NCBI RefSeq assembly: GCF_900182725.1
Contig: NZ_FXTO01000002.1
Span: forward strand, 1 to 64,000
Origin: Thalassovita litoralis
Lineage (GTDB): Bacteria > Pseudomonadota > Alphaproteobacteria > Rhodobacterales > Rhodobacteraceae
Direction of reading: 5' to 3'
Length of the DNA: 64,000 bases
Part shown: positions 18,363 to 63,612 of the stretch, piece by piece
Position numbering within the stretch: position 1 is the stretch's first letter
Layout of the letters: each line of letters starts with the position of its first letter
The notes under the pieces: generated by a model
Told to the model about the DNA's origin: nothing
The model's database searches: none
The model's input: the letters and a program-made list of their open reading frames with translations, nothing else
Program-made: the position numbers and the translations under genes

Positions 18363-19325
18363 TCAACCGCGCGGGCTGCGGCCTGTCCATTTGCGATAGG
18401 CGCGGAAAAACGCACTGGGTTCGCTATAGCCCACGGCGGCGGCCACATCCGCCACGCTGACCCCGCCCGTATCCAGCATCCGCTGGGCGCGGGTCATGCG
18501 CAATTCGTCCTTGATCGCGCGATAGCTTTGCCCATCCGCCCGCAACTGGCGGCGCAGTGTGGCAGGGGATACCCCCATCCGTCCGGCCAGCGCGTCAAAT
18601 CCGGGCCAATCCGTCGGGGGCAAATCCGCCAATATCCCGCGCACCCGGATCGCGGTTCCCTGATCGTGGCGGAACCGGATCAGGATATTCGCCGGGGCTT
18701 CGCGCAGGAATGTTTTCAGCGCAGCGTCCCCTCGGATCACCGGCAGCGATAAATAGGCCGCATCGAAAACCAGCCGGGTTTCAGGGGCATCGAACTGCAC
18801 GGGAACGCCGAAAAATTGCCGATAATCCGCCCGGTCCGGTGGGGCAGGGCAGGCGAAATCCAGCCGCCGTAGTGGAATGCGTCGCCCCACCAGCCAACAG
18901 GTCACGCCCATCAGGATCAACCAATAGGTCCGATAGGCAAAAGCCGATCGCTGCATTTCGTCTTGCAGGGTGATCCGCGCCTCGCCCTCGCGCAGGGTCA
19001 ATTGCCCGGTCGGGCCATCCAGCACCACGTTCAAAAAGGACAGCGCCCGGTGCAAGGCCTGTTTCAGCGTCCCAGTCGACAGCACCGCATGGCACAGCAG
19101 CGCGAAACTGCCGGGCCGCATGGGCCGCGCCCCAAGGCCGAAAAATTCGTCCTGCATGGTCTGGGCGATCAGCCACCACAGCCGCCCATAGTCCTGCGCC
19201 GATACCGGGCCAACAGGCGGGATCATCCCCAGTTCTGCCAGCAAAAGCGCGGGGTCATGCCCCCCCGCCCGCAGACAGGACAGCGCATCTTCGACAAATC
19301 CAGCAGAAATCGGCGGTTGCTTCAT
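18363..19325 (-). CDS. AraC-family transcriptional regulator with arabinose-binding-like N domain
   Basis: A 320-residue regulator. The N-terminal two thirds resemble the Arabinose_bd effector domain of the OruR/ArgR-like AraC subgroup. The C-terminal HTH_18 domain includes FDALAGRMGVSPATLRRQLRADGQSY and the second helix region VADVAAAVGYSEPSAFFRAYRKWTG. The frame stays open far upstream, but the ATG at 19325 gives the usual family length. It is divergent from the SDR-thiolase-acyl-CoA dehydrogenase operon (109 bases apart) and is its likely activator. Confidence 0.88.
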   Translation of the reverse strand: MKQPPISAGFVEDALSCLRAGGHDPALLLAELGMIPPVGPVSAQDYGRLWWLIAQTMQDEFFGLGARPMRPGSFALLCHAVLSTGTLKQALHRALSFLNVVLDGPTGQLTLREGEARITLQDEMQRSAFAYRTYWLILMGVTCWLVGRRIPLRRLDFACPAPPDRADYRQFFGVPVQFDAPETRLVFDAAYLSLPVIRGDAALKTFLREAPANILIRFRHDQGTAIRVRGILADLPPTDWPGFDALAGRMGVSPATLRRQLRADGQSYRAIKDELRMTRAQRMLDTGGVSVADVAAAVGYSEPSAFFRAYRKWTGRSPRG

Positions 19326-19433
19326 CCCTGTGCGATACTGGCAAAACCGATCATAAATCAAGATATTTAGCGTCATTGATTGCCATGCCGTCCGGCCTAA
19401 GCTGCGCCGCGATACGGTATCGGAGGAGACATC

Positions 19434-20201
19434 ATGCAAATCGACGGGAAGGCCTTTGTTGTCACGGGGGCAGGTTCGGGTCTTGGCGCGGCTGTGGCGG
19501 ATATGATCGTGGCCGCAGGCGGCAGCGTCGTGTTGGCTGACATCAACGCCGACGCGGGCACCGCCAAGGCGGCAGAGCTGGGTCAAACCGCCCGGTTTTG
19601 CCAGACCGACGTAACGCAAGACGCCGATGGCAAGGCCGCCATTGCTGCCGCGCTGGATGGGTTCGGGCGGCTGGACGGGCTGGTGAATTGCGCAGGTATT
19701 GCGCCGGGCGAAAAAATTCTGGGCCGTAATGGTCCTCATGCTCTGGACAGCTTTGCCCGCGCCATTTCGATCAACCTTGTGGGCAGCTTCAACATGCTGC
19801 GGCTGGCGGCGGATGCGATTTCCCAGCAGGCACCGGGGCCGGATGGTGAACGTGGCGTGATCGTCAACACCGCGTCCATCGCGGCCTATGACGGGCAGAT
19901 CGGGCAGGCGGCCTATGCCGCATCCAAGGGCGGCGTTGCGGCGCTGACCTTGCCCGCAGCCCGCGAACTGGCGCGGTATGGCATCCGTGTTGTGACCGTC
20001 GCGCCGGGCATTTTCGGCACTCCGATGATGGCCGCCATGCCACAGGACGTTCAGGATGCGTTGGGGGCATCGGTTCCGTTTCCATCCCGGCTGGGCAACC
20101 CCGCTGAATTTGCTGCGCTTGTGCGCCATATCTGTGAAAACCCCATGCTGAACGGCGAAGTCATCCGACTGGACGGTGCGCTGCGCATGGCCGCGAAATA
20201 A
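19434..20201 (+). CDS. SDR-family 3-hydroxyacyl-CoA dehydrogenase (type II, HSD17B10-like)
   Basis: A 255-residue short-chain dehydrogenase. The NAD-binding motif is TGAGSGLG at 11-18, NCAG lies at 85-88, and the catalytic residues are Ser148, Tyr161 and Lys165 (YAASK). The sequence style ([31 protein letters not shown]) is that of type II 3-hydroxyacyl-CoA dehydrogenases, which oxidise short or branched 3-hydroxyacyl-CoAs. GGAGGAG precedes the start. It is the first gene of a three-gene beta-oxidation operon, and its product would feed the thiolase just downstream. Confidence 0.92.
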
Positions 20202-48925: not shown

Positions 48926-50059
48926 ATGTTGACCAAATTCACCGCCGCGCTGACCGCGGCCACACTGGCGCTATCCGCCGCCTTGCCCGCCACCGCAGGC
49001 GAGGCCGAATTGCCCCGCTCGATGCTGTGGTCCACCTATGACGTGGGGTCCAGCGGCTATGTCGAGGCATCGGCCATCGCGGATGCCTTCGCCAAGGAAT
49101 ACGGCACCCGTGTGCGTATCATGCCTTCGGGGACGTCGATCGGGCGTTTGCTGCCGCTGAAAACAGGCCGCGTGCAATATGGCTGGCTGGCGAACGAACT
49201 GTATTTCGCAACCGAGGCACTGTATGATTTCAGCGCACAGGAATGGGGTCCGCAGGACCTGCGCACCATTGCGGGACGTCCGTCGACCTTTGGTATGGCC
49301 ATCGCTGCGGACAGCGGCGTGAAAACCATTGCAGACCTGAAAGGCCGCAAGGTCGCGCGGGTCAAGGCGAACCCGTCGATCAACATCAAGGTCGAAGCGA
49401 TCCTGGCCTTTGCCGGGCTGACCTGGGACGATGTGGAAGTGGTGGAAATGCCGTCCTATGGTGCCTCGCTGAAGGCGCTGGTCGATGGGCAGGTTGTCGC
49501 CGCAGGGTCCACCCCCACCGCCGCCACGCTGTATGAATTGGAAAGCTCGCCGCACGGAATTTACTGGGCGCCGCTGGACAAGGATAACGCCGCAGGCTGG
49601 GACGCGGTTGCCAATGTTGCCACGTTCTTTGCCCCGATCAAAGCCACCAAAGGCGCGGGCATGTCTGCTGAAAACCCGGCTGATATTATCGGTGTGCGCT
49701 ATCCGATGATCGCGGTTTACGCTGACGCGTCCGAGGACGAGGTTTACAACCTGATCAAGGCGCTGAACGAAACCTATGGTATCTACAAAGGGGCCACTGC
49801 CGTCACCGGCGATTGGGCGCTGGAAAAAGCGGGCCGCACCCCATCGGATGCGCCGTTCCACCCCGGTGCTATCCGTTACCTGACCGAAATCGGCCTGTGG
49901 ACCGAGCAGGATCAGGCATGGAACGATGCCCGTCTGGCCCGCCTGAAAAAGGTACAGGCCGCATGGGACGCCGCGACCGAAGAAGCCTTGGATAAAAACA
50001 TTCCGGGCAAGCAATGGGCCGCCTTCTGGGAAGAGTACCGCGCTAAAGCGCTGAACTAA
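48926..50059 (+). CDS. TAXI-family TRAP transporter solute-binding protein
   Basis: A 377-residue periplasmic protein with a signal peptide ending near LPATAG (about residue 24). The mature region has MLWSTYDVGSSGYVEASAIADAF, RVRIMPSGTSIGRLLPLKTGRVQYGW and IADLKGRKVARVKANPSI, typical of TAXI proteins. GGGAGG precedes the start. It lies between the CoA-transferase gene and the fused permease. A very strong hairpin follows it inside the operon. Confidence 0.93.
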   Translation: MLTKFTAALTAATLALSAALPATAGEAELPRSMLWSTYDVGSSGYVEASAIADAFAKEYGTRVRIMPSGTSIGRLLPLKTGRVQYGWLANELYFATEALYDFSAQEWGPQDLRTIAGRPSTFGMAIAADSGVKTIADLKGRKVARVKANPSINIKVEAILAFAGLTWDDVEVVEMPSYGASLKALVDGQVVAAGSTPTAATLYELESSPHGIYWAPLDKDNAAGWDAVANVATFFAPIKATKGAGMSAENPADIIGVRYPMIAVYADASEDEVYNLIKALNETYGIYKGATAVTGDWALEKAGRTPSDAPFHPGAIRYLTEIGLWTEQDQAWNDARLARLKKVQAAWDAATEEALDKNIPGKQWAAFWEEYRAKALN

Positions 50060-50073
50060 GCCCTTATTATTCG

Positions 50074-50109
50074 CCGCCGTTTGGGGATGAGTCCCCGAAC
50101 GGCGGTTTT
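50074..50109 (+). terminator. Strong intra-operon hairpin (partial terminator or 3'-end stabiliser)
   Basis: CCGCCGTTTGGGGA (50074-50087) pairs over 14 bp with TCCCCGAACGGCGG (50092-50105), with one G-T pair and a 4-base loop, and is followed by TTTT. It lies in the 71-bp gap between the binding-protein and permease genes, so it probably lowers permease relative to binding protein. Confidence 0.82.
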
Positions 50110-50130
50110 CCCTTTTTCAAAGGTATCGCC

Positions 50131-52065
50131 ATGTCTACCCAAGCTGACCCCGTGCTGGAGACAGCCGCGCCAGCCAACCCCCGTCTGAGCGGGGCAACAC
50201 GCGTTGCCGTTGCCGTTTTGGGCGTTGCCGGTTTGGTCGCGATTGTCGTCCAGACGTTCAACCTGTCCGCCTTTGGCCTGTTTCCGCTGCTGGCCAATCG
50301 CTATTATTACCTGTTGATTGCCCTGTTTCTGGCTGCGTCCTTTTTGATCATGCCCGCGCGATCCGCCAATCGTGATGCCCCGGCCAATCTGTTGGATTGG
50401 GGACTGGCTGTGCTGGCAATCGGATCGGGGCTGTATCTGTCTGTCGTGGCCGAAAATATCCTGACAGGTGGTTGGGATGTGGTGGCGCCGCCCGTTGCCG
50501 CCGCAGTATCCGGTGTTCTGGTGGCCCTGTCCCTGGAAGCGGTGCGCCGGTCTGGCGGCGCGATCCTGCTGGTGATCTGCGGGTTTTTCGCGGCCTATCC
50601 GTTATTTGCCGATTATCTGCCCGGTTTCCTGTGGGGACCATCGCTGAGCCTGACCGAAACCGTGGCGGCACATGCGATGGGCATGGAAAGCATCATTGGC
50701 ATTCCGCTGCGCGTGGTCGCCGATACGTTGGTGGGTTTCATCATTTTTGGCGCAGTGCTGAATGCGATGGGCGGCGGGCAGTTTTTCATGGACCTGTCGA
50801 TGGCCCTGATGGGCAAATCGCGGGGCGGGCCTGCCAAGGTGGCGATCCTGTCCAGCGGGTTGTTCGGGTCATTGTCGGGGTCGGTGATTTCCAACGTGCT
50901 GACCACCGGGCGGCTGACCATTCCGGCCATGCAGCGCGCGGGCTATCCGCCCAAATACGCCGCCGCGGTCGAGGCCTGCGCGTCGACCGGCGGAACGCTG
51001 ATGCCGCCGGTGATGGGGGCTGTGGCCTTTATCATGGCGTCGTTTCTGGATACGTCCTATACCACGATCATTGTTGCGGCGCTGGTGCCGTCGGTGCTGT
51101 ATTATCTGGCGCTGTTGTTGCAAGTGGACCTGTATGCCGCCCGCAAGGGGCTGGCCCCCGCCGGGACCGAAGATATTCCCGCTTTGCCCCGCGTGCTGGC
51201 CGAAGGCTGGCACCATCTGGTGTCCCTGATCCTGTTGGTGGGGATGCTGTTCGTGCTGTCGCCCAGCCGCGCGGCCTATTACGCAACGGTGCTGATGCTG
51301 ATGCTGGGGCTGCTGCGCCACCGCCGTATGCCGACACTCGGCGCTGCCCGTGATCTGCTGGAGGATGTGACCGGCAATATCGCCTATCTGATTGCTACGC
51401 TGTGCGGGATCGGGTTGGTGGTTGGATCACTGGCGATCACCGGCGTGGGCAGCGCCTTTTCGCGCGAACTGGTGCAATATGGCGGGCAAAGCGTATTCCT
51501 GCTGTTGGTGCTGGGGGCGTTGACCAGCTTTGTTCTGGGGATGGGGATGACGGTTTCGGCCTGTTATATCTTCCTTGCGACGGTGCTGGCCCCGGCCTTG
51601 GTGGAACTGGGGCTGTCGCCCATCGGGGCGCATTTGTTCGTGCTGTATTGGGGGATGCTGTCCTATATCACGCCGCCTGTGGCACTGGCGTCGATCACCG
51701 CAGCACAGATTTCCGGTGCGAAGGGGCTGGAAACCGGCTTTACCTCGATGCGACTGGGGGCGGCGCTGTTCATTCTGCCGTTTGTGTTCGTTTATGAACC
51801 GGCCTTGTTGTTGCAGGGCGATCCGCTGACGATCCTGTTTTCTGTCGGCAGTGCGGTTCTGGCGCTGACTGCGCTATCCTGCGCGCTGGAGGGACATCTG
51901 TATCAGGTGGGCCGCATTGGTCCGGTGGCCCGGTTGGTGACTGGGGTCGGGGCGCTGCTGCTGATGATACCGGACCGGATGTACGAAGCCGCAGGGTTGG
52001 CTTTGGTTTTGGGACTGGCGTTGTTGCTAACGATGTTAAACAAGGCCCGCCCAACGGCTGCCTGA
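50131..52065 (+). CDS. TRAP transporter fused permease (DctQM type)
   Basis: A 644-residue membrane protein with the small and large TRAP subunits in one chain and about 16 predicted helices. GGPAKVAILSSGLFGSLSGSVISNVLTTG and ASTGGTLMPPVMGAVAF are the TAXI-associated permease signatures, and LGMGMTVSACYIF is the second repeat motif. It lacks the DUF3394 tail found in the 38894-41530 permease. AAAGG precedes the start. It is the last gene of the LysR-controlled operon. Confidence 0.93.
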   Translation: MSTQADPVLETAAPANPRLSGATRVAVAVLGVAGLVAIVVQTFNLSAFGLFPLLANRYYYLLIALFLAASFLIMPARSANRDAPANLLDWGLAVLAIGSGLYLSVVAENILTGGWDVVAPPVAAAVSGVLVALSLEAVRRSGGAILLVICGFFAAYPLFADYLPGFLWGPSLSLTETVAAHAMGMESIIGIPLRVVADTLVGFIIFGAVLNAMGGGQFFMDLSMALMGKSRGGPAKVAILSSGLFGSLSGSVISNVLTTGRLTIPAMQRAGYPPKYAAAVEACASTGGTLMPPVMGAVAFIMASFLDTSYTTIIVAALVPSVLYYLALLLQVDLYAARKGLAPAGTEDIPALPRVLAEGWHHLVSLILLVGMLFVLSPSRAAYYATVLMLMLGLLRHRRMPTLGAARDLLEDVTGNIAYLIATLCGIGLVVGSLAITGVGSAFSRELVQYGGQSVFLLLVLGALTSFVLGMGMTVSACYIFLATVLAPALVELGLSPIGAHLFVLYWGMLSYITPPVALASITAAQISGAKGLETGFTSMRLGAALFILPFVFVYEPALLLQGDPLTILFSVGSAVLALTALSCALEGHLYQVGRIGPVARLVTGVGALLLMIPDRMYEAAGLALVLGLALLLTMLNKARPTAA

Positions 52066-52155: not shown

Positions 52156-53199
52156 TCAGTTTCCGGCGGCGGTATGTTTTGCGATCAGCGCTTGTGCCTC
52201 GGCAAGCAATGCCGCGCCGTCGATACCTTTGGCGGTGACGTCGTTGATCCAACGTTCGTAAACGGGTTGTGCGAAAGCTTTCCACTTTTCGCTGTCTTCT
52301 GGTGAAATCGTGATGATGGTGTTGCCTGCGGCCACGGCTTTTTCCCGCGCGGCACCGTCTGCACCGGCCTGTTGCGCCCCGGCAAAGGCCGAGAATTCCA
52401 AGCCGGAATTGGCATCAATCGCGGCGCGGATGTCATCGGGCAGGCTTTCGTATTTGTCCTTGTTCATCGCCAGCGTGAAGGTGACGGTATAGAACGAATA
52501 CCCATCGGCGAATTCGGTGTGGTTATGTACCAGTTCCGGTACTTTCAGTGCGGTCGTCACTTCCCACGGGATCACGGCCCCGTCGATCACGCCCTTGGAC
52601 AGGGCTTCGGGAATGGCGGTAACAGGCATACCAATCGGCACTGCGCCCAGATTTTCCAGCAGGAACCCGGCCATACGGCTGGGGATGCGGAATTTCAGGC
52701 CTTTCATGTCCTCCATCGAGCGAACCGGGGTGTTGGTGTGCATCACACCGGGGCCGTGAACCCAGCCGCCGATCAGGTGAACATCACGATAATCGGTGTC
52801 CTTCATTTCCTTTTCAAACAATTCCCAGAAGGCGCGGCTGGTCGCTTCGGCATTGGTCATCAGGAAGGGCAGTTCAAACACTTCGGAACGGGGGAAGCGA
52901 CCGGGGGTAAAACCATTCACCGTCCAGGCCAGATCGACGATACCGTCCTGCACCTGATCCATCAGTTCCGGGGGTTTCCCGCCCAGTTGCATTGACGGGT
53001 AATGTTCGATTTTCAGCTTGCCCCCGGTGGCGGCTTCGACGCGCTGAATCCATTCATCCAGAACCAGTTTCGGGACATTGGCCTGCGCAGGCAGGAATTG
53101 GTGCAGTTTCAGCGTGACCTCTTGCGCCCAAAGCGGGGTGGCCAGAAAAGCGGCCCCTGCGGCCAGACCGGCCAGTAGCGTGCGGCGAATGGTGTTCAT
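52156..53199 (-). CDS. DctP-family TRAP transporter solute-binding protein, without a local permease
   Basis: A 347-residue periplasmic binding protein. A signal peptide ends at LATPLWAQ (about residue 25). Conserved blocks are VTLKLHQFLPAQANVPK, GLKFRIPSRMAGFLLENLGAVPIGM and the central Arg-containing region typical of DctP proteins that bind carboxylates. The ATG at 53199 follows GGGAGG. It is downstream of, and co-directional with, the monooxygenase-ligase fusion. No DctQ/DctM genes of the matching class lie beside it; the nearest fused permeases each have their own TAXI protein. Its permease is presumably elsewhere. An aromatic carboxylate ligand is a reasonable guess. Confidence 0.92.
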   Translation of the reverse strand: MNTIRRTLLAGLAAGAAFLATPLWAQEVTLKLHQFLPAQANVPKLVLDEWIQRVEAATGGKLKIEHYPSMQLGGKPPELMDQVQDGIVDLAWTVNGFTPGRFPRSEVFELPFLMTNAEATSRAFWELFEKEMKDTDYRDVHLIGGWVHGPGVMHTNTPVRSMEDMKGLKFRIPSRMAGFLLENLGAVPIGMPVTAIPEALSKGVIDGAVIPWEVTTALKVPELVHNHTEFADGYSFYTVTFTLAMNKDKYESLPDDIRAAIDANSGLEFSAFAGAQQAGADGAAREKAVAAGNTIITISPEDSEKWKAFAQPVYERWINDVTAKGIDGAALLAEAQALIAKHTAAGN

Positions 53200-53262
53200 T
53201 GTTTCCTCCCTTTTGAACACGGTTTTATTTGACTGTACGGGTGTTTCCATCATCCAGACAAG

Positions 53263-56004
53263 TCAGATGGATGGTGTGCCTGCTTGCGTCAGCAGGGCTT
53301 GCCTGTCGATTTTGCCGGTGCCGGTCTTCGGCAATTCGGATACGTATTGGAACAGGCGCGGGGCTTTGAAGGGTGTCAGACGCGATTTCACGTAATCGCG
53401 CAGGGCTTGGGTGCGGTCGTCATCCCCGGTCAGACCAGAGGTCAGGCTGACCACCGCCCGCAGTGCCATACGCTTGTCTTCCAGCTCTTCTGCCAGAACT
53501 GCGCATTCATGGATATCAGGGTGTTCATTCAGGCAGCGTTCCACCTCTAGCGGCCAGACCCATTGGCCTGAAACCTTGATCAGCTCATCCGCGCGACCTT
53601 GGAAATAGTAATATCCATCACGTTCGATGAAACGGTCGCCGGTATAAATCCAATCCCCGCGCATGGTGTCTTGGGTTTTGTCGGGGCGGTTCCAATAACA
53701 CGGTGCCGATGAATCGCCGCGCACGAACATTACGCCTTCTTCTCCGGGTTGGGTGGGGGTGCCATCGGGGGTGAGCAGCTTTACCTCGTACCCCGGAACG
53801 CGGGCGCCTGCTGCGCCGGGGCGGTGGTCGTCCAGATGATTGGACAGGTAGATATGCAGCAATTCGGTCGATCCCAACCCTTCGGTAGGGCCGTGTCCCG
53901 CATGGTTTTTCCACGCAGTATAGACATCTTCGGACAGGATTTCAGCCGCTGACATGGATTGCCGCAACGAGGACAGATCGCGCCCGGCGATGGTGTCGGA
54001 CCGGGCCAGCGCGGTGTACAGCGTTGGCAGGCCGAACAGGACACTGGGGCGATAGGTTTCGATAGCATCCAGAACGGCATCAGGGCGGGGTTGGCCGGGC
54101 AATAGCAGCGCCGTTGCCCCAACCGAGAAGGGGAAGGTGACAGAGTTGCCGAAACCGTAAGCGAAATAGATTTTCGGCACCGAAAAAGCGATGTCATCTG
54201 TCCGCAGTTTCAAAACCTGTTCGCCAAAGCTTTGCTGGGTGTAGGCCATGTCGTGATGCAGATGGACGATCCCCTTGGGGCGGCCTGTCGATCCGGATGA
54301 ATACATCCAGAACGCCATGTCATCCGGTCCGGTATCCGCGCAGGGCAGCGTGGTGGGCTGCCCGGATAGAAAACCGTCCGCAGACAGGCACTCATCGGCT
54401 GCGCCATTCACTGCGATCCGCGTCGTGACGGCGGTGCCGTTCAATGTTTCGGCGTCAAAGATCGGGGCCAATTCCGCCTCTGTCAGGACAATACGGGCGG
54501 CGCTGTCCTTCAGGAAATAGTTCAACACATCCGGTTTGGTCTGAATATTCAGCAGTACTGGCACGAAACCTGCCCGCACAGCACCGAAAAAGGCAGCGGG
54601 ATAGCTGGGGGTGTCATCCAGAAAAAACGCGATGCGGTCACCGCGTTGCAACCCTGCGGCGGTAAACGCATTGCCCCATTGCGCGGCCTTTTCGATCAGT
54701 TCCCGATAGCTAAGCGTTCCCATTGGGCCGATGAGCGCGGGTTTATCGGGATTGCGGGTCAGATTTTGCCACAGGATGTTCGAACAGTTCGGATGATCCG
54801 CTTTTGCAAAGCCAATTTCCGCAGCGCCAGCGGTATCGGCCTGCACCGGGTCTGTGATCGGATCGGGTTTGGCAGCTTTATAGGCGTCGTATTCAGCCAT
54901 GAATTCTGGCGTCAGCCTGCGCATCCGGTCCATATCCACCCGCCCCGAACGGGTCAGATAGTTGAACGCAAAATCCAGTGGCGGCATCTGCATTTTTTCA
55001 CCGAAGCTTTCGTACCACGTGGCCGAGGTGTTGGCCGCGTCGACGATCTTTTTCGCAATGGGTTGGCGTTCGCGCTGATACGCCATCAAGGCCGTATCTA
55101 TATCATCATGTGCAGCCAGCGACCGAACCAGCGCAATCGCGTCTTCCATGGCCAGACGCGTGCCGGACCCGATGGAAAAATGCGCCGTATGCACCGCGTC
55201 CCCCAGCAGCGCATAGCGCCCGCTGACCCAGTTCTGGCACCACAGGCGCGGAAATTGCCGCCAGTGGGATTTGTTGATGACCAGATCAGTGCCTTGCAGA
55301 ACGTCCTTAAACAGATCGGCGCAGATATGTGCGCTTTGTTCTTCGGTCATGTCACCAAAGCCATAGGCGCGATGCACCGCGTCCGAGCATTCCACGATAA
55401 AAGTGCTGCGATCCGGGGTATACCGATAATGGTGGGCGTTCAGCGGTCCCTTGTCGGTTTCAATAAAGGTTTGGGTCAGGGTGTCGAATGGGACGGTTGC
55501 GCCAAACCATGCAAAGTGGTTGCCGAAGTTTTCGATCTTCGGGGCAAAGCCGTCTTCTAATGTCTGGCGGACCAGTGAATTCAGCCCGTCGGCACCGATC
55601 ACCAGATCGGCCTCTAGCTCCTCCAGCGAGTCGATATGCGTGTTAAACCGGATCGGCACGTCCAAGGCGCGGGCGCGGTCCTTGAGGATTTCGATCAAAT
55701 CCAGCCGCCCAATCGCGGTGAAACCCACACCATCCAGCGTCACGCTGCCCTGCGGGTGGTTCAGCGTCATGTTCCGCCACCGTTCCATATGCGGCACAAC
55801 CAGATCATGAGTTTCGGGATCATCGGCCTTCAGAAACTCCAATGCCTGATCAGAGAACACCACACCAAAGCCAAAGGTCGCGCCCTCTGGGTTTTGTTCT
55901 GTTACGCGGACGCGCACATGCGGCAGCAGTCGGCGGATCAGGATCGCGGTGTACAGGCCAGCGGGGCCACCACCAAGAATTTCAATACTGGACAGCTTCG
56001 ACAT
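53263..56004 (-). CDS. Fusion of FAD aryl-CoA monooxygenase (salicylyl-CoA 5-hydroxylase-like) and benzoate-CoA ligase-like enzyme
   Basis: A continuous 913-residue protein with two catalytic modules. Residues 1 to about 385 are a flavin monooxygenase: GGGPAG at 11-16, FGFGVVFSD at 44-52, and GDAVHTAHFSIGSGTRLAMEDA around 268-289, a signature of salicylyl-CoA 5-hydroxylase and 2-aminobenzoyl-CoA monooxygenase N domains. After a linker (about 385-405) comes an AMP-forming aryl-CoA ligase: YSSGSTGRPKG at 568-578, YTGD at 787-790 and catalytic Lys898 in GTGKID; it most resembles benzoate-/2-aminobenzoate-CoA ligases. I see no stop or frameshift at the junction. The start has GGGAGG. It could activate an aromatic acid and hydroxylate the CoA ester. 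Confidence 0.92.
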   Translation of the reverse strand: MSKLSSIEILGGGPAGLYTAILIRRLLPHVRVRVTEQNPEGATFGFGVVFSDQALEFLKADDPETHDLVVPHMERWRNMTLNHPQGSVTLDGVGFTAIGRLDLIEILKDRARALDVPIRFNTHIDSLEELEADLVIGADGLNSLVRQTLEDGFAPKIENFGNHFAWFGATVPFDTLTQTFIETDKGPLNAHHYRYTPDRSTFIVECSDAVHRAYGFGDMTEEQSAHICADLFKDVLQGTDLVINKSHWRQFPRLWCQNWVSGRYALLGDAVHTAHFSIGSGTRLAMEDAIALVRSLAAHDDIDTALMAYQRERQPIAKKIVDAANTSATWYESFGEKMQMPPLDFAFNYLTRSGRVDMDRMRRLTPEFMAEYDAYKAAKPDPITDPVQADTAGAAEIGFAKADHPNCSNILWQNLTRNPDKPALIGPMGTLSYRELIEKAAQWGNAFTAAGLQRGDRIAFFLDDTPSYPAAFFGAVRAGFVPVLLNIQTKPDVLNYFLKDSAARIVLTEAELAPIFDAETLNGTAVTTRIAVNGAADECLSADGFLSGQPTTLPCADTGPDDMAFWMYSSGSTGRPKGIVHLHHDMAYTQQSFGEQVLKLRTDDIAFSVPKIYFAYGFGNSVTFPFSVGATALLLPGQPRPDAVLDAIETYRPSVLFGLPTLYTALARSDTIAGRDLSSLRQSMSAAEILSEDVYTAWKNHAGHGPTEGLGSTELLHIYLSNHLDDHRPGAAGARVPGYEVKLLTPDGTPTQPGEEGVMFVRGDSSAPCYWNRPDKTQDTMRGDWIYTGDRFIERDGYYYFQGRADELIKVSGQWVWPLEVERCLNEHPDIHECAVLAEELEDKRMALRAVVSLTSGLTGDDDRTQALRDYVKSRLTPFKAPRLFQYVSELPKTGTGKIDRQALLTQAGTPSI

Positions 56005-56033: not shown

Positions 56034-56065
56034 GGAATGAATAGTGTACAATTCCATATTGTGCA
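56034..56065. promoter_or_regulatory. Overlapping inverted repeats, probable IclR operator
   Basis: TGTACAAT (56045-56052) and ATTGTGCA (56058-56065) form a dyad with 7 of 8 pairs around TCCAT. GGAAT (56034-56038) and ATTCC (56051-56055) form another. They lie in the 87-bp gap between the divergent fusion gene and thioesterase gene and could let the IclR regulator control both. Confidence 0.6.
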
Positions 56066-56091
56066 AAAGATTCCGCAATAAGGAAATAAAA

Positions 56092-56490
56092 ATGATCCAC
56101 ACCTACCACGTACCAATCACGTTCGGCGATTGTGATCCGGCCGGAATTGTGTTTTATCCCAACAGCTTCAGATGGATTGACGCCAGCTTTCACGATTATC
56201 TTCGGCAATTTGGCGGACACGGGGCAATCTGTGCCAAGCTGGGGGGCACAGGCTTGGGGTTGGTCGATTCCGGTGCGCAGTTCCGCTATCCCATGCGGGA
56301 CGGCGATATGCTGATGATCGGAATCACGGCGTTGGATTGGGGGCGTAAAACGCTGACTGTCAGTTACGAAGCGCACATTGGCGACAAGCTGGCCTTCACG
56401 GGAAAAGAGGTGCGCTGTCTGTTCATTCCAACTAAGGACGGCCTGATCGCGGGCGATATGGAGCAGGTCCGCGCAATCGTGGAAGGATAA
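56092..56490 (+). CDS. Hotdog acyl-CoA thioesterase (4-hydroxybenzoyl-CoA thioesterase family)
   Basis: A 132-residue single-hotdog protein. FGDCDPAGIVFYPNSFRWID at 11-30 is the family signature, with Asp15 matching the catalytic aspartate of the Pseudomonas-type 4-hydroxybenzoyl-CoA thioesterase. The ATG at 56092 follows AAGGA; the longer frame upstream runs into promoter elements. It is divergent from the monooxygenase-ligase fusion and precedes an IclR gene by 5 bases. It probably releases the hydroxylated aromatic acid, for example gentisate, from its CoA ester, but the substrate is inferred from context. Confidence 0.9.
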   Translation: MIHTYHVPITFGDCDPAGIVFYPNSFRWIDASFHDYLRQFGGHGAICAKLGGTGLGLVDSGAQFRYPMRDGDMLMIGITALDWGRKTLTVSYEAHIGDKLAFTGKEVRCLFIPTKDGLIAGDMEQVRAIVEG

Positions 56491-56495
56491 GAACC

Positions 56496-57281
56496 ATGGC
56501 AGAGGATGGCAGCACCGGGGCGGGGATCAAATCGCTGGATTCCGCGCTGGCGGTGCTGATGCGGTTGGCCGGGCGGAATGAGGCGGTGACGCTGTCCGAT
56601 TTGGCCCGCGATTGTGACATGCCCCCCAGCAAGGTACATCGCTATCTGGCGTCTTTTATGGCCGCGGGTTTGGTCAAACAAGAAGGCCGATCGGGGCGGT
56701 ATGATCTGGGACCGGGAGCGTTGCAATTGGGGCTGGCGGCGTTGGCGCGGCATGATTTCGTGAATTTCGCGGCTGATGGATTGCCGGACCTTGCGGCCCG
56801 CATGGGGATGACCGTGTTGCTGTCCGTCTGGGGCAATGAAGGGGCCACAGTGGTGCGCTGGGAAAAGGGGATCACGCCAACGGTGACGTCGATGGGCTTG
56901 GGGACCACGCTACCTTTGTTGAATTCAGCGACGGGGCGGGCGTTTCTGGCTTGGGCGCCCGAGGGGGCGATTTCCGCAGCGCGCGAGGCAGAATTGCGCC
57001 GCGCCAGCCGCAATCCGGGGTTGCTGCACGATGTTCCTGCCACAAAATCCGGTTTGGTGGCGTTGGTGGCGCGTATTCGGGCGCGGGGGGTTGCGACGAT
57101 CGAGGGGAAATATATCCCCGGTCTGGTTGCGGCATCAGCCCCGGTATTGGATTGGCAGGACGAGGCGCAGGCCGTGATCACGGTTGTCGGTACGGAGTTG
57201 TCGCAAATTGCGGAAGGTTCGGCAAATGAACGCCATCTGATCCAGTATTGCGCGGAAAAATCGGTGCGTCAACCAGGGTGA
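56496..57281 (+). CDS. IclR-family transcriptional regulator
   Basis: A 261-residue regulator with an N-terminal winged helix (VTLSDLARDCDMPPSKVHRYLASFMAAG) and an effector domain containing GTTLPLLNSATGRAFLAW. AAGGA precedes the start and it lies just after the thioesterase gene. It probably controls the divergent fusion/DctP operon and its own operon through the dyads at 56034-56065. The ligand may be the aromatic acid or CoA ester. Confidence 0.93.
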   Translation: MAEDGSTGAGIKSLDSALAVLMRLAGRNEAVTLSDLARDCDMPPSKVHRYLASFMAAGLVKQEGRSGRYDLGPGALQLGLAALARHDFVNFAADGLPDLAARMGMTVLLSVWGNEGATVVRWEKGITPTVTSMGLGTTLPLLNSATGRAFLAWAPEGAISAAREAELRRASRNPGLLHDVPATKSGLVALVARIRARGVATIEGKYIPGLVAASAPVLDWQDEAQAVITVVGTELSQIAEGSANERHLIQYCAEKSVRQPG

Positions 57282-57342: not shown

Positions 57343-59682
57343 TCAATGCTCGGCCACGGGGTCCAAGGTTTTGCCCCGCCAGTGCCACAGGATGATCCCA
57401 ATGGCCCCGGCAATGCCAATCAGGCTAAGCAGCGGGATTTTCATCAGCACCAGCACGGCCAATGCCAGACGCGCCCAGCTTTCCCAGCGGCCAATCGGGC
57501 GCGCCTCGAACCGGGCCAGAACACTGGCCAGAAGGTATAGCGCCAGCATCACCCGCCCGAACACCATCGCCAGATGTAGCGGATGCACTGTGCCGTCCAA
57601 TCCCGGCAGATAGCGGGCCGCGCCTGCCTCGGGGTTCAGTTGGGCGGCTTCGATCAGCAGCAGTTCGGGATAGAAGGCAAAGATGAAAGGCACGACGAAG
57701 ATCACGACACCCGCCCGCACCGCAGCCACCCCGGTGCGCATCGGATCGGCCTTGGTGATCGAAGCGGCGGCAAAGGCCGCCACCGCGACAGGGGGCGTGA
57801 TGGCCGAAGCGACGGCGAAGTAAAAGATGAACATATGCGCGGTGAATGTCGCAATGCCCAGCCCCACCAGCATCGGTCCCATCAGCAAGGCAACATTGAT
57901 ATAGGCCGGGACGGTCGGCATCCCCATGCCCAGCAGGATCGCCATCAGCATCGTCGCCGCCAGCGCCAGCAGCATGAAGAACGCATTGTCCCCGATGATC
58001 CCGCCCGAGTCGCGCAGCCAGCCGATGATGTCCACGGCCACATAGTTCGACAGGCCTGTTAGATTCAGACAGAAGTCGATGACCGACACCGCCAGAAACA
58101 TCAGGTACAGTCGACTGACCAACAGCCCCGCATCAGCCAGTGCGGTCACGATTTTACCGGGTGATTGGCGGATTTCGCGGTCCAGAAAGAACAGCACCAC
58201 CAACAGCGCGGTTGCCCACCACCCGGCTGATCCGGCGTCGCCCGCCGAGTTCTGGATCAGTTGCAGCAGCCACGGCAGGTTTTCGGCCCGGCAGCCATTT
58301 TCGCTGATGATCTGGGTGACGCCCCACAAGCCCGCCAAGGGACCACAGCCCACGGCCTCTTTGGGGATCAAAAGCAGGACAAGGATCAGCAGGATCGGCC
58401 CGAAAATCATGACCAGATGCAGCTTGTCCTCTCCGGTCAGGCGCATGTCGTCGGTCACGTCACCTACGGCTTCGATCCCTTGCTTGCGGGCCTGAAAGGC
58501 CACGGTCAGGAATAGGCAGCCGAAATAGGCCACCGCTGGCAGAACCGCGGCGATGATCACCTCGCGGTAGGGGACAACCGTCATGGCAGACAGAACGAAA
58601 GCGGCCACGCCCATCACTGGCGGCATGATCTGCCCACCCGAGGAGGCGGCGGCCTCGATCCCACCTGCGAATGTGTGTTTGAAGCCGCGTTTCAGCATCA
58701 TTGGGATGGTCAGCACCCCGGTAGACAACACGTTCACCACGGGGCCGCCTGAAATCGTTCCGAACAGGGCCGACGAAACAACAGCCGCATGGGCCGGACC
58801 GCCACGCAGGCGGCGGGTCCACAAAAACGCGATCTTGATCAGGGACCGGCCCCCGGCGGATACACCGAACAGCGATCCCAACACGATATAGGGGAACACC
58901 GTATCCATCAGAATACCCATGAACCGACCCAGCAAGCCCTGTGCATTGTTGACAAGGATGTCTTGCATATTGGGCCGCCCGTCGATCAGCATCCGGGGTT
59001 CGCCGCCCAATTTGGTGACAAGGTATTTGTTGATGTCATCAGCCCCGAAGAAATACCACACCATCACCGTGGACAGCGTATAAGCGGCAATCAGGATGGC
59101 GACCATCACCAGCGGAAACCCCCAGACCCGCACGTTATAGGCCAGAAACGTCGCGATGGTGCAGGCGACCAACGGGAAAATCCACAGCCCCAGCGTATTG
59201 ATACAGGACGGATCGTCGACGCTGGTGGGGACGGGTAGCCCCATCGTTTCGGCGAACTCCTTTTCCTCTTGCAGGGCTTTGGCGATCAATTCGGCGCGTT
59301 CACCTGTGAATTGGTCAATCAGGCACACGCTGTCAATTTCGATCAGATAGCCCGCAGCAATTGCCAGCGCGGCCACGATCAGGGCGATGTCCAATGCCAG
59401 CCCCAACCCGGTCAGGCCCTTGGATTTGCCTTTTTCGCGCATGTCACGGGCGACGGAATGCTCAAAGGCCACGGTGGTCATCATGATCACGAAAACCAGC
59501 GGGTAAAGATATTCATAGCTAAAGCGTCGGATCACGACACCATCGCCAAACACGCCCGTCACCAGATCGTCCAGACCGGGAATGGCGGGCAATGTGTTCA
59601 ACATACCAATGGCAACAAGCACAAGGCCAAGGAATAGGGCAAGGCGCCGGAAAATTCCGGGCGTGGCGGCGGGGAAGGTCAT
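57343..59682 (-). CDS. TRAP transporter fused permease (DctQM type), third in window
   Basis: A 779-residue membrane protein. The small-subunit unit has a long periplasmic insertion (about 110-165, acidic, with DSVCLIDQFTGERAELIAKAL). The large unit shows GGPAHAAVVSSALFGTISGGPVVNVLSTG, AAASSGGQIMPPVMGVAAF and LGMGMPTVPAYINVA. GGAGA precedes the start. It is the last gene of the sulfatase-TAXI-permease operon. An unusual second polar stretch (about 440-480, with two or three cysteines) lies between membrane blocks. Confidence 0.92.
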   Translation of the reverse strand: MTFPAATPGIFRRLALFLGLVLVAIGMLNTLPAIPGLDDLVTGVFGDGVVIRRFSYEYLYPLVFVIMMTTVAFEHSVARDMREKGKSKGLTGLGLALDIALIVAALAIAAGYLIEIDSVCLIDQFTGERAELIAKALQEEKEFAETMGLPVPTSVDDPSCINTLGLWIFPLVACTIATFLAYNVRVWGFPLVMVAILIAAYTLSTVMVWYFFGADDINKYLVTKLGGEPRMLIDGRPNMQDILVNNAQGLLGRFMGILMDTVFPYIVLGSLFGVSAGGRSLIKIAFLWTRRLRGGPAHAAVVSSALFGTISGGPVVNVLSTGVLTIPMMLKRGFKHTFAGGIEAAASSGGQIMPPVMGVAAFVLSAMTVVPYREVIIAAVLPAVAYFGCLFLTVAFQARKQGIEAVGDVTDDMRLTGEDKLHLVMIFGPILLILVLLLIPKEAVGCGPLAGLWGVTQIISENGCRAENLPWLLQLIQNSAGDAGSAGWWATALLVVLFFLDREIRQSPGKIVTALADAGLLVSRLYLMFLAVSVIDFCLNLTGLSNYVAVDIIGWLRDSGGIIGDNAFFMLLALAATMLMAILLGMGMPTVPAYINVALLMGPMLVGLGIATFTAHMFIFYFAVASAITPPVAVAAFAAASITKADPMRTGVAAVRAGVVIFVVPFIFAFYPELLLIEAAQLNPEAGAARYLPGLDGTVHPLHLAMVFGRVMLALYLLASVLARFEARPIGRWESWARLALAVLVLMKIPLLSLIGIAGAIGIILWHWRGKTLDPVAEH

Positions 59683-59755
59683 GGGGTGTCTCCGTCAGAT
59701 CACGAGGAGGAGGGGAGGGGCACCGCGCAGCGTGCCCCAACCGGATTGGCGTGTC

Positions 59756-60805
59756 TTACTTGGCGCACTCGGGTACGGTGTAACCGGCCTCTTCCCAGGC
59801 GGCGACTGCGCCGGGATGGTATTTCACCGGATTAATCCCGCAGAAACCTGACAGTTTCGGGTCCATTTCCGCAACGCCCACGTTTTTCATATAGGCGGTC
59901 TTGGATTTCAGTTGCTCCATATTCTTGATATAGGCGGCAACCAGCGCCTTTGCGGTGTCAAAGGGCATGTCCTTGTTCACCACATCGGTAAAGGCCGTTC
60001 CCAAACCCCGGAATGTGGCGTCTTCGGAAATCAGGCGAATGCCTTTGCCGTCCTGATAACCCATGTCTTCCCATTTGATAACGATCGGAACGTTGCCGGG
60101 GGCGTTGAACACCTTTTGGTAGCTGTCGCTTTCGAACACATCTTTCGGGGTGGAAACCATGACCACATTACCCGCCGCCTGCATTGTCGTCGCACGGGCA
60201 GAGGGGAACGTCAGCGGGAACACGAACGCATCCATCGACCCGTCAACCAGTAGTGTCGGCAACTGGCCCCAGTTGGCTTGATGACCGGTGTAGTCCTCGC
60301 CGTCCTTCAGGCCTGCCGCCAGTTGGATCGCCTGACGGGCGTTCACCAAAGCCGCACCACGGGGCGGGCCGTTCCAGACGTCTTTGCCTTTCAGATCGGC
60401 CCAGCTTGTGACGCCTTTGCTTTCGAGTGCGATCAGCCCGTAAGCGCCCGCATTATAGGGATATAGCGCGCGCAGGTCGGCCGCCAGTTCCGCCCCGGCC
60501 TCGCCCTGTTTGGAATAGGGACCACGCCCCTTGGACAGCAGAAAGCCCAAAATCAGCGGCATCGAAGCGATGTCGGTGCGGCCCTGTGCGACGTTCAGAA
60601 CCGAATTGGTCAGTGTTTGCCCTTCTTGTACCTGTAGATTGGCGACACCTTCCTGTGCGGCGGTTTCTGCCAGATACAGAATTGAAACATGGGGGCTGTT
60701 GCCGGGGCTTGATGTTTCCGCCGACAAGTTCGATTGGGCCAATGCCGGGCTGGCCATCAGCCCCGCCGCCGCAAGTGCGGCTAAAGTCCGGGTAACGCGT
60801 TTCAT
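59756..60805 (-). CDS. TAXI-family TRAP transporter solute-binding protein
   Basis: A 349-residue periplasmic protein with a signal peptide ending at ASPALAQ (about residue 24). It is more divergent than the other two TAXI proteins in the window, with SPGNSPHVSILYLAETAAQEG replacing the usual glycine-rich start, but LKGKDVWNGPPRGAALVNARQ and FHPGA-like KYHPGAVAAWEEAGY retain the family pattern. AGGGAGG precedes the start. It lies between the sulfatase and permease genes and should deliver their substrate. Confidence 0.9.
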   Translation of the reverse strand: MKRVTRTLAALAAAGLMASPALAQSNLSAETSSPGNSPHVSILYLAETAAQEGVANLQVQEGQTLTNSVLNVAQGRTDIASMPLILGFLLSKGRGPYSKQGEAGAELAADLRALYPYNAGAYGLIALESKGVTSWADLKGKDVWNGPPRGAALVNARQAIQLAAGLKDGEDYTGHQANWGQLPTLLVDGSMDAFVFPLTFPSARATTMQAAGNVVMVSTPKDVFESDSYQKVFNAPGNVPIVIKWEDMGYQDGKGIRLISEDATFRGLGTAFTDVVNKDMPFDTAKALVAAYIKNMEQLKSKTAYMKNVGVAEMDPKLSGFCGINPVKYHPGAVAAWEEAGYTVPECAK

Positions 60806-60859: not shown

Positions 60860-62533
60860 TTATTTGGCTTTGGGGCCGTTTTTCATATTGGGGGCTTTGC
60901 GCTGGCGGTATTTCACCGTCAGTTCCAGCGGGGTGTCGTTTTCGTCATAGACGCCGATCACCACGCCGCGCCGCCGGGTTTTGCTGCGCATTTCCATCAG
61001 TTGCTGTTCAGACCGGGTGGTGCGCTGCGACTGGCGGCGGGTCCATGCGAACAGTTTGTCGTACATTTCGGCGATGACGTCCCAGTGGTCGTCGCTGTCC
61101 CCCAGGTCGTTCAGCTCATCCGGGTCGTTGATCAGATCGAACAGGATCGGACGATAACCGCCTTCGCAGTGGACCAGTTTCCATTCCTTGTTGGCGACCA
61201 TGAACATCACCCCGTCGCGCACGCTGGCATCCAATGCCGTAGCCACGGGCGAGGCCGAATAATCATATTCGCAGATCACGTAGTCGCGCAGCGTTTCCGT
61301 GCGCTGACCCCGCAGGATTGGCAGCAGGCTTTCGCCTTCCAGCACATGATAGGCGGGTTCGCCCCCCGCAACTTCGACAAAGGTGGGGGCAAGGTCGATG
61401 GCTTCGACCAGCGCATCGCAAACAGTGCCGCGGGTGGCGTCCGCTTCGGGGCTGGGATCATAGATGATCAGCGGCACCTTGGTTGATGTGTCGTGGAAAA
61501 ACGTCTTTTCCCCCATCCAGTGATCGCCCAGAAAATCCCCGTGGTCCGAGGTCAGCACGATCATCGTGTCGTCCATCCGGCCGGTGTCTTCCAGCCATTT
61601 GAATAGGCGGCCCATCTGGTCGTCACATTGTTTGATCAGGCCCATATAGGCGGGGATCACCGCCTCGCGCACGTCCTGACGGGAAAAGGTCTGGCCGATT
61701 TTCGTGTCCATGAACGCCTTCAGTACCGGATGGGCGCTCTGATATTCCTGATCGGATCGCACGATGTCCTGCACGTCCTCGGGGCCGAACATGTCGCAAT
61801 AGGGTTCGGGGACGATATAGGGCCAGTGCGGCTTGATATAGGACAGGTGCATACACCACGGTTCCTTGGCCTGTTCGATAAAGGCCATGCCGCGCCCGGT
61901 CAGATAGGGGGTTTCGCTGTCTTCTTCGGCAATATTGGCGGCTTCAGGCGAATTTTTCAGGAACCAGCCAGACAGAACATTGCCATCCTCGTCCAGACCG
62001 GAATTGGCAAAGTCATGCCACGGGTTATCGGACTCATAACCCTTTTCGCGCAGGTACTTGTTATACTCCTTAGCTCCGTCCGGGTCATATGACCCATCCG
62101 GCCCTTCGGGCAGCATCCCGTCATCGCGTTCAAACACATCAAAACCGCATTCGGCCACTCGCGCACCGATCAGGCTGTCGGGTTCCAGCCCCAGCCGTTC
62201 CATGCCTTCTTCGTCGGCACGCATGTGGGTTTTGCCTACCAGCCAGCAATCCATACCCTGTTTGCGCAGGTGATCGCCCATCGTCTGTTCGCCCACCTTC
62301 AGGGGGATGCCGTTCCAGCTTGCGCCGTGGGAATGCACATACCGCCCGGTATAGGTGGACATGCGGGACGACCCACAAATCGGCGACTGGATATAGGACC
62401 GCGTAAACCGCACACCCATCGACGCCAGCCTGTCAATATTCGGGGTTTCCAGCGTTTTGTGACCATAACAGCTTAGGTAATCCCAGCGCAGTTGGTCAAA
62501 CATGATGAACAGAATATTCTTGGGTTTTGCCAT
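60860..62533 (-). CDS. Sulfatase-superfamily hydrolase with atypical CxSxR motif
   Basis: A 557-residue alkaline-phosphatase-fold enzyme (sulfatase or phosphonate monoesterase group). Asp13 in MFDQLRWD is a metal ligand. The formylglycine site reads CGSSR at 53-57 instead of the usual CxPxR. VLTSDHGDFLGDHWMGEKTFFHDTSTKVPLI is the C-terminal metal-binding block in overview. No signal peptide is seen, so it would act in the cytoplasm on an imported ester. The ATG at 62533 is preferred over a GTG at 62548. It heads the operon with the TAXI protein and TRAP permease. Confidence 0.9.
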   Translation of the reverse strand: MAKPKNILFIMFDQLRWDYLSCYGHKTLETPNIDRLASMGVRFTRSYIQSPICGSSRMSTYTGRYVHSHGASWNGIPLKVGEQTMGDHLRKQGMDCWLVGKTHMRADEEGMERLGLEPDSLIGARVAECGFDVFERDDGMLPEGPDGSYDPDGAKEYNKYLREKGYESDNPWHDFANSGLDEDGNVLSGWFLKNSPEAANIAEEDSETPYLTGRGMAFIEQAKEPWCMHLSYIKPHWPYIVPEPYCDMFGPEDVQDIVRSDQEYQSAHPVLKAFMDTKIGQTFSRQDVREAVIPAYMGLIKQCDDQMGRLFKWLEDTGRMDDTMIVLTSDHGDFLGDHWMGEKTFFHDTSTKVPLIIYDPSPEADATRGTVCDALVEAIDLAPTFVEVAGGEPAYHVLEGESLLPILRGQRTETLRDYVICEYDYSASPVATALDASVRDGVMFMVANKEWKLVHCEGGYRPILFDLINDPDELNDLGDSDDHWDVIAEMYDKLFAWTRRQSQRTTRSEQQLMEMRSKTRRRGVVIGVYDENDTPLELTVKYRQRKAPNMKNGPKAK

Positions 62534-62657
62534 ACGTCTATTGCCCACCCGGCAGATATGCGCCGCGCTGATTGCCAGCGATGGGCCTCCTCCTTGCTTT
62601 GTTAACTAACATTAGCGATTCGCAACGGGGACGGGAAATAGCGATTTAGGATATGCT

Positions 62658-62679: not shown

Positions 62680-63612
62680 TCAGGCGATGTTGCTATCCAG
62701 TCCCAGCGATACGACCTCTTCGCGGATCACCTGCATCAGCAATTGCGCGGGTTCGCTGACCTCTTGTCCGGCAAGGGTGGTCAGCCCGACAGCCCCGGTT
62801 AATTCGTCTGCGCCAAAGTTCAAAATCGTAACGCTGCCGTCTGCCAGTTCGCGGCGCATCGCCCCCAGCGGTTGACACACGACGGCGTCGGATATCGCTA
62901 TGTAATTTCGGGAAAATTCAAAGGACAGAGTTTCGATCAGATTGGAAAAGCGCGACAGACCATGTGCAATGATGAACCGATCCATTTCGGCCCGGATGAT
63001 TGTATTCGGCAATGGCAGAACGACCGGAAAATGATCAATGTCGTGGATGCTCAGTCCCTTTTGACGGGTCAGCGGATGACCTGATCGGACAAAGAACACC
63101 AATGGTTCACTGAACAGATGTTCAAAGTTCAGGCCTTCCATATGCTCGGCGGCCAGCAGGCGGCCAAAGCCGAAATCAACTTCGCTCGTATGGATATATT
63201 GCTGTAACCCGCCGCCGGTGGTTGCTTTGAATGTCACATCTATTGCCGGATACAGCGATTTGAATCGCGCCACCGCGCCGGGCATCACCATACGCACGAC
63301 ATTGGGCAACACATAAGCCCGCACCCGTTGCGAGGTCAGTCCGCCCAGCAGTGTTTTCAATCCCAGATCGACCTGCCCCAGCCCGTTGCTGACATAGGAA
63401 AACAACAGCCGCCCCTGTGCATTCAGCGCCAGCCCGCTGGCGGTGCGTTCAAACAATGGCCCGCCCAATTCCTGTTCCAATTCGCGCAGGGTACGCGACA
63501 CGCTGGGCTGGACCGTCCCCATGCTTTCGGCGGCATGTGTGACCGATCCAAACTGCGCGACAGCCAGAAAGCACCGCAGATGCCGCATCCTTATCCGGTG
63601 GGAATTCATCAT
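62680..63612 (-). CDS. LysR-family transcriptional regulator (PcaQ-like)
   Basis: A 310-residue regulator. The N-terminal HTH starts RMRHLRCFLAVAQFGSVTHAAESMGTVQPSVSRTL (overview) and resembles PcaQ/GbpR-type regulators. The effector domain follows from about residue 95. Two adjacent ATGs (63612 and 63609) are possible starts. It is upstream of and co-directional with the sulfatase-TRAP operon and divergent from the MFS gene. A T-N11-A dyad sits just before it. Confidence 0.92.
   Translation of the reverse strand: MMNSHRIRMRHLRCFLAVAQFGSVTHAAESMGTVQPSVSRTLRELEQELGGPLFERTASGLALNAQGRLLFSYVSNGLGQVDLGLKTLLGGLTSQRVRAYVLPNVVRMVMPGAVARFKSLYPAIDVTFKATTGGGLQQYIHTSEVDFGFGRLLAAEHMEGLNFEHLFSEPLVFFVRSGHPLTRQKGLSIHDIDHFPVVLPLPNTIIRAEMDRFIIAHGLSRFSNLIETLSFEFSRNYIAISDAVVCQPLGAMRRELADGSVTILNFGADELTGAVGLTTLAGQEVSEPAQLLMQVIREEVVSLGLDSNIA

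Follow-up and report, generated by a model that had tools for sequence, protein, structure and literature searches.

We found that one uninterrupted reading frame joins an aryl-CoA flavin hydroxylase (about residues 1-377) to a benzoate-CoA-ligase-type domain (about residues 383-905) in the window, by which we mean the whole 64,000-nucleotide stretch of Thalassovita litoralis DNA analyzed here. Based on sequence comparisons, we propose with a probability of roughly 0.83 that this is a bifunctional CoA-dependent enzyme of the salicylate pathway, which would convert salicylate to salicylyl-CoA and then to gentisyl-CoA on one polypeptide, with gentisate released by a thioesterase. The substrate, the position of hydroxylation, the regulation and any channelling are features that we infer. 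Related bacteria carry the two enzymes either joined or as neighboring genes, so we regard the fusion as a naturally occurring version of a salicylate degradation route that is already known. The novelty lies in the joined architecture, in how widely it occurs and in the signs of repeated fusion or fission; the CoA-mediated salicylate pathway itself has been described before. A search of the open-licence PMC literature returned no fused hydroxylase-ligase in print, which is no proof of absence as most subscription journals lie outside that collection.

One reading frame with two domains

The fused gene, of the CehH-CehG type, lies on the reverse strand (53263..56004), opens with an ATG and encodes 913 amino acids in a single frame with 0 internal stops. 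Pfam profiles recovered FAD_binding_3 (2.6e-19, best stretch 128-323), AMP-binding (1.3e-72, residues 412-771) and AMP-binding_C (7.1e-14, residues 820-898), and residues 409-904 scored above the cut-off of TIGR02262, the NCBIfam model of the benzoate-CoA ligase family (470 vs 375 bits). The first half of NF006101, the bifunctional salicylyl-CoA 5-hydroxylase/oxidoreductase model, was matched by residues 7-379 (profile positions 3-387 of 768) with 375 bits vs a cut-off of 1078; membership in NF006101 was ruled out, as the score falls below the cut-off and the oxidoreductase half is missing. Within its own genome the fusion had a single full-length match, and 43 further matches were partial, nearly all of them other acyl-CoA ligases.

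The closest named relatives are separate proteins, encoded on plasmids of Agrobacterium tumefaciens Sta004 and Salipiger abyssi, to which RefSeq gives the names CehH (salicylyl-CoA hydroxylase) and CehG (salicylyl-CoA ligase); throughout, the names CehG, CehH and CehI are the RefSeq annotation of these two plasmids, and our comparisons were made with those plasmid proteins. The hydroxylase domain (residues 1-377; 54874..56004, reverse strand), a CehH-like FAD monooxygenase, is 71.4% and 75.9% identical to the two CehH proteins over 377 residues, and the CehG-like ligase domain (residues 383-905; 53290..54858, reverse strand) is 74.3% identical to both CehG proteins over 525 aligned columns. 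Among 60 of 180 records listed, plasmid entries named bifunctional salicylyl-CoA 5-hydroxylase/oxidoreductase are 35.5-39.0% identical to the hydroxylase domain, whose best solved relative by sequence is VioD. Homology to separate CehH stops at residue 377 and homology to separate CehG begins at residue 383; the gap between these ranges, together with a junction listing of 82 rows, marks a short link of about residues 378-382 (54859..54873, reverse strand). Just past the junction lies a DPV...GAAEIGF-like stretch that, in the same listing, also occurs near the start of separate ligases, so the fusion contributes little linker.

We aligned 36 fused proteins (the window protein and 35 selected relatives) and found the main motifs of both domains conserved. 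In GGGPAG, G11, G13, P14 and G16 are invariant in 36/36 proteins while G12 and A15 vary; invariant as well are G268, D269, A270, H272-H275, S277 and G279-G281 of the GDA.HTAH.S.GSG stretch, Y568-G571, T573 and P576-G578 of YSSGSTGRPKG, and T894-K898 of TGTGK. A preliminary description of this DNA had reported one polypeptide fusing these two domains in this order, and the 913-residue frame and the Pfam and NCBIfam profiles agree with it; the motifs that it quoted (GGGPAG, YSSGSTGRPKG and GTGKID) are present. It had placed the junction near codons 385-405; by our comparison the junction lies slightly upstream (377/383). An AlphaFold model of the fusion (pLDDT 83.0, pTM 0.60) has recognizable folds for both domains. 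Their mutual orientation in the model is not fixed, and we therefore draw nothing about channelling from it.

Neighboring genes and a putative operator

Divergent from the fusion is a CehI-like thioesterase gene of the 4HBT family (56092..56490, forward strand; start codon picked by hand, with the longest open reading frame beginning at 56044), whose product is 54.5% identical over 123 residues to the RefSeq-named CehI. In an alignment to 1bvq, Asp residues of this protein fall on 4HBT Asp17 and Asp32, whose roles are described in an excerpt of PMC516016. By tblastn, the thioesterase was found at 43 of the 78 related loci described below (28/51 fused, 15/27 split); at the nearest relative, L009, it was not found beside the fusion by this search. 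The thioesterase gene is followed by one for an IclR-family regulator (56496..57281, forward strand; Pfam HTH_IclR and IclR_C), 64% identical to the IclR protein encoded beside cehI in A. tumefaciens Sta004. In Sta004, cehI (gentisyl-CoA thioesterase) and the IclR gene are divergent from cehH/cehG, and the equivalent divergent position in S. abyssi is taken by genes for an acyl-CoA thioesterase and an IclR protein; the window has this same gene order.

The IclR protein probably controls the divergent thioesterase and fusion pair. Upstream of the hydroxylase start lies an imperfect palindrome of recurring pattern (56052..56086), a putative operator to which, we infer, the IclR protein would bind. 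The pattern, written after viewing the window and L009 and allowing 4 substitutions, occurred in 37 of 82 upstream regions, some of which are near-copies, vs 67 of 1640 single-base shuffles; 29 of the 37 occurrences start 75-91 nt before the hydroxylase start. On the other side, 9 nt downstream of the fusion and on the same strand, is a gene for a DctP-type TRAP solute-binding protein (52156..53253, reverse strand; Pfam DctP), possibly co-transcribed with the fusion; in L009, too, the fusion is followed by a DctP gene. On both sides of the locus (48926-52065 and 57343-60805) are TAXI-type TRAP genes, which encode a binding protein and a fused permease. Farther along the window are a sulfatase-family protein (60860-62548; 300 bits to the PehA phosphoric/sulfuric ester hydrolase model vs a cut-off of 900) and a LysR regulator nearest PcaQ (62680-63612; 248 vs 304 bits).

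Proposed pathway and alternative substrates

In the proposed pathway, the C-terminal domain would convert salicylate, ATP and CoA to salicylyl-CoA, and the N-terminal FAD domain would form gentisyl-CoA from salicylyl-CoA by hydroxylation at C5 with NAD(P)H and O2. Gentisate would be set free by the neighboring CehI-like thioesterase and then cleaved by a gentisate 1,2-dioxygenase-like enzyme, whose gene lies elsewhere in this genome. No ring-cleavage gene was recognized near the fusion within the window. On contig C32 of the genome, a gentisate dioxygenase-like gene (296 vs a cut-off of 442 bits), a fumarylacetoacetate hydrolase-like gene and a 3-hydroxybenzoate 6-hydroxylase gene (above cut-off) lie together; because the last of these adjoins there, gentisate cleavage from this contig may also serve 3-hydroxybenzoate. 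Identity between the C32 dioxygenase and the cupin encoded at the Sta004 locus is only 31%.

To characterize the surroundings of the relatives, we searched their flanks with profiles made from one representative per gene type. A gentisate dioxygenase-like gene was found in the examined flank at 40 of 78 loci (28/51 fused, 12/27 split), and 47 of 78 had one or more genes resembling those for gentisate dioxygenase, fumarylacetoacetate hydrolase, GST or MDMPI, contig ends shortening some flanks. As for the representatives themselves, those for GST and MDMPI pass their curated cut-offs, that for fumarylacetoacetate hydrolase passes in Pfam, and the dioxygenase scores 260 bits vs the gentisate dioxygenase cut-off of 442. 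The fused or split state was compared with ten neighbor gene types, and only the liv-type binding protein differed (14/51 vs 1/27, p 0.014, uncorrected for ten tests and confounded by kinship). The gentisate-type cluster of the genome at L094 (3310-5968) sits next to the quinolinate synthase NadA and L-aspartate oxidase genes.

Salicylate to gentisyl-CoA had been the leading hypothesis of the preliminary description, and it gains from CehH and CehG as the nearest named proteins, from the adjacent CehI-like thioesterase and from the gentisate-type genes beside many relatives; the anthranilate or benzoate alternatives named there found no specific support here. In the 2-aminobenzoyl-CoA route, anthranilate (2-aminobenzoate) is activated and then hydroxylated, and the fusion might do the same. 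Foldseek with the AlphaFold model ranked anthranilate- and benzoate-CoA ligases best for the C-terminal part, the top two matches being anthranilate-CoA ligase chains (4wv3); VioD was among the hits of the model from rank 25 downward. By sequence, however, benzoate-CoA ligases score slightly higher (356.8 vs 349.3 bits), so the ligase domain does not discriminate between the two. The neighbor genes of the relatives are gentisate-type and the oxidoreductase half is absent from the fusion, and we consider anthranilate very unlikely. It is also improbable, given that the closest named relatives are salicylate enzymes, that the fusion acts like PhgAB, a route that the preliminary description did not name: 4-hydroxybenzoate would be activated and then hydroxylated while its CoA-bearing carboxyl group undergoes a 1,2 shift, to give gentisyl-CoA, and then gentisate via the thioesterase; PhgA and PhgB entered this comparison by description. 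An excerpt of PMC7862547 describes phgABC as converting 4-hydroxybenzoate to gentisate, with three equal activities and an identical end product, and domain content alone would fit 4-hydroxybenzoate as well.

Fused and split forms among relatives

The preliminary description had proposed searching for this architecture and mapping its spread. We scanned named genomes with patterns built from the fused query and, out of 164 confirmed stretches, retained the best 80. Of these, 78 could be scored: 51 carry both domains in one frame and 27 as two genes. As only the best 80 of 164 were kept, and these were found with fused-query patterns, the ratio of 51:27 is not a frequency in nature. Two loci were left unscored as no hydroxylase match lay upstream; L072 ends at a contig edge, and in L080 (603-3014) the ligase is joined to unrelated sequence, PdxH-like and dehydrogenase-like by eye, which is probably a misassembly in a metagenome bin. 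L043 was re-coded by hand from split to fused because its sole in-frame stop sits at the far end of the ligase. In 26 of the 27 split relatives among the best 80, the ligase gene is immediately preceded by that for the hydroxylase. The two genes overlap by 4 nt at one extreme and are about 110 nt apart at the other, with three exceptions: L068 and L085 overlap by 41 and 379 nt, which we attribute to the first possible start codon being taken, and L079 has 2.4 kb between the two genes.

That the fusion is a rarity found no support: the fused form recurs across many alphaproteobacterial genera among the best 80 of 164 relatives. We also sampled 149 genomes from the family of the window organism and found that 12 match at E <= 1e-150; 8 of these, its own included, have both domains in one frame, 1 has them in neighboring frames and 3 match in the ligase part only at this threshold. 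The sole other genome of the same genus in this sample had no match at E <= 1e-150. In a sample of 385 genomes from the class, 14 matched (its own fused, 3 of one genus in two frames, 10 with the ligase only), two candidates being scored per genome so that hydroxylases may be missed; one hydroxylase stretch among the 3 two-frame genomes contains a TGA.

A joined gene could also be a sequencing or assembly error, or one of its domains could be dead. On some rhizobial plasmids the annotation gives two shorter, overlapping genes in its place, and 27 of the 78 scored relatives are split. A missed stop or frameshift at the junction, named earlier as what would overturn the fusion, is not borne out: 51 of the 78 relatives, from many genera, and 8 of the 12 matching family genomes are fused in one frame, which rules out a junction artefact, and the 36 aligned fused proteins retain the active-site motifs of both domains. 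We thus regard an error or a dead domain as hardly credible and hold to a bifunctional salicylate-pathway enzyme.

Several loci depart from the two common arrangements. In L034 (10001-13996) and L078 (10001-13989), a separate hydroxylase gene directly precedes the fused hydroxylase-ligase gene. Beside the fused gene of L066, a second hydroxylase domain (18464-19588), 37% identical, lies in a 768-residue frame, which is the length of the NF006101 model. The plasmid copies annotated as two overlapping shorter genes (according to annotation tables only) are those of Rhizobium beringeri/ruizarguesonis: L098 (2992-5732), L099 (3055-5732) and L100 (2992-5732). No thioesterase or IclR gene is listed within 3 kb of them in an incomplete plasmid gene table, and decay of an isolated copy is possible.

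Trees and direction of change

We built quick trees of 82 rows with midpoint roots and SH-aLRT support only; these include L090-L092 and the window, all outside the 78-locus counts. The fused or split state needs 6 changes on the two-domain tree, 7 on the hydroxylase-only tree and 8 on the ligase-only tree, and in each tree starred branches force 5 or more of the changes; we read these as signs of repeated fusion or fission in the family. A single clade of all 25 split rows outside a 6-row outlying group was rejected (p-AU 4.35e-05), as was one of 24 split rows without L079 (p 6.56e-09), the groups in both tests having been named after the tree was seen. The 6 outlying rows comprise 4 split and 2 fused, and an 8-row group comprises 7 split and 1 fused. 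In the hydroxylase-only tree, the only starred set around the window is its pair with L009. The separate hydroxylase copy of L034 falls within a starred set of 18 split rows. Pseudaminobacter salicylatoxidans and A. tumefaciens Sta004 have nearly identical split genes, which also speaks for the salicylate reading.

The 17 split rows with the RefSeq-named pairs nest in a 58-row set that is mostly fused (40 fused, 18 split), so a secondary split is the simpler reading for this group, on a midpoint root and with deeper groups mixed or mostly split. Over the family as a whole, the direction of change may be either fusion or fission. It is a tentative and rather doubtful idea that the fused form is older in the larger part of the family, passes salicylyl-CoA straight from its ligase to its hydroxylase domain, and gave rise by later fission to the RefSeq-named CehH/CehG pairs. 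If so, one two-step reaction would be represented in this family by a natural range of joined, separate and perhaps re-joined enzymes.

Significance and comparison with known systems

These relatives form a matched natural set of fused and split enzymes that very probably catalyze the same two steps, which suits testing whether fusion benefits the handover of a reactive aryl-CoA. Annotated plasmid copies in the fused form carry a ligase-only name, which suggests that a complete enzyme for the conversion of salicylate to gentisyl-CoA can stand behind the entry name "benzoate-CoA ligase family protein". This bears on predictions of salicylate breakdown in Alphaproteobacteria, both marine and plant-associated.

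The ceh gene names presumably originate from Rhizobium sp. X9. Compared with the Ceh pathway, the window ligase and hydroxylase are 71-76% identical, the thioesterase is 54% identical and the divergent order with the IclR gene is shared; the ligase and hydroxylase, however, are one polypeptide in the window and separate in Ceh, and the gentisate-cleavage genes of the window organism are unlinked. An excerpt of PMC11335346 credits the CoA-mediated salicylate pathway of Rhizobium sp. X9 to Zhou et al. 2021 (Mol Microbiol 116:783). The NF006101 enzymes have a related N-terminal hydroxylase domain, but their second half is an oxidoreductase where the window protein has a ligase. SdgC is a separate protein, unlike the fused hydroxylase of the window. 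Its reaction, named as that of a salicylyl-CoA 5-hydroxylase in an excerpt of PMC13215587, equals by description the one proposed for the window hydroxylase. PhgABC, also compared by description, shares with our proposal the formation of a CoA thioester, hydroxylation, thioester hydrolysis and the end product, but is encoded by three genes and starts from 4-hydroxybenzoate, with migration of the CoA-bearing group.
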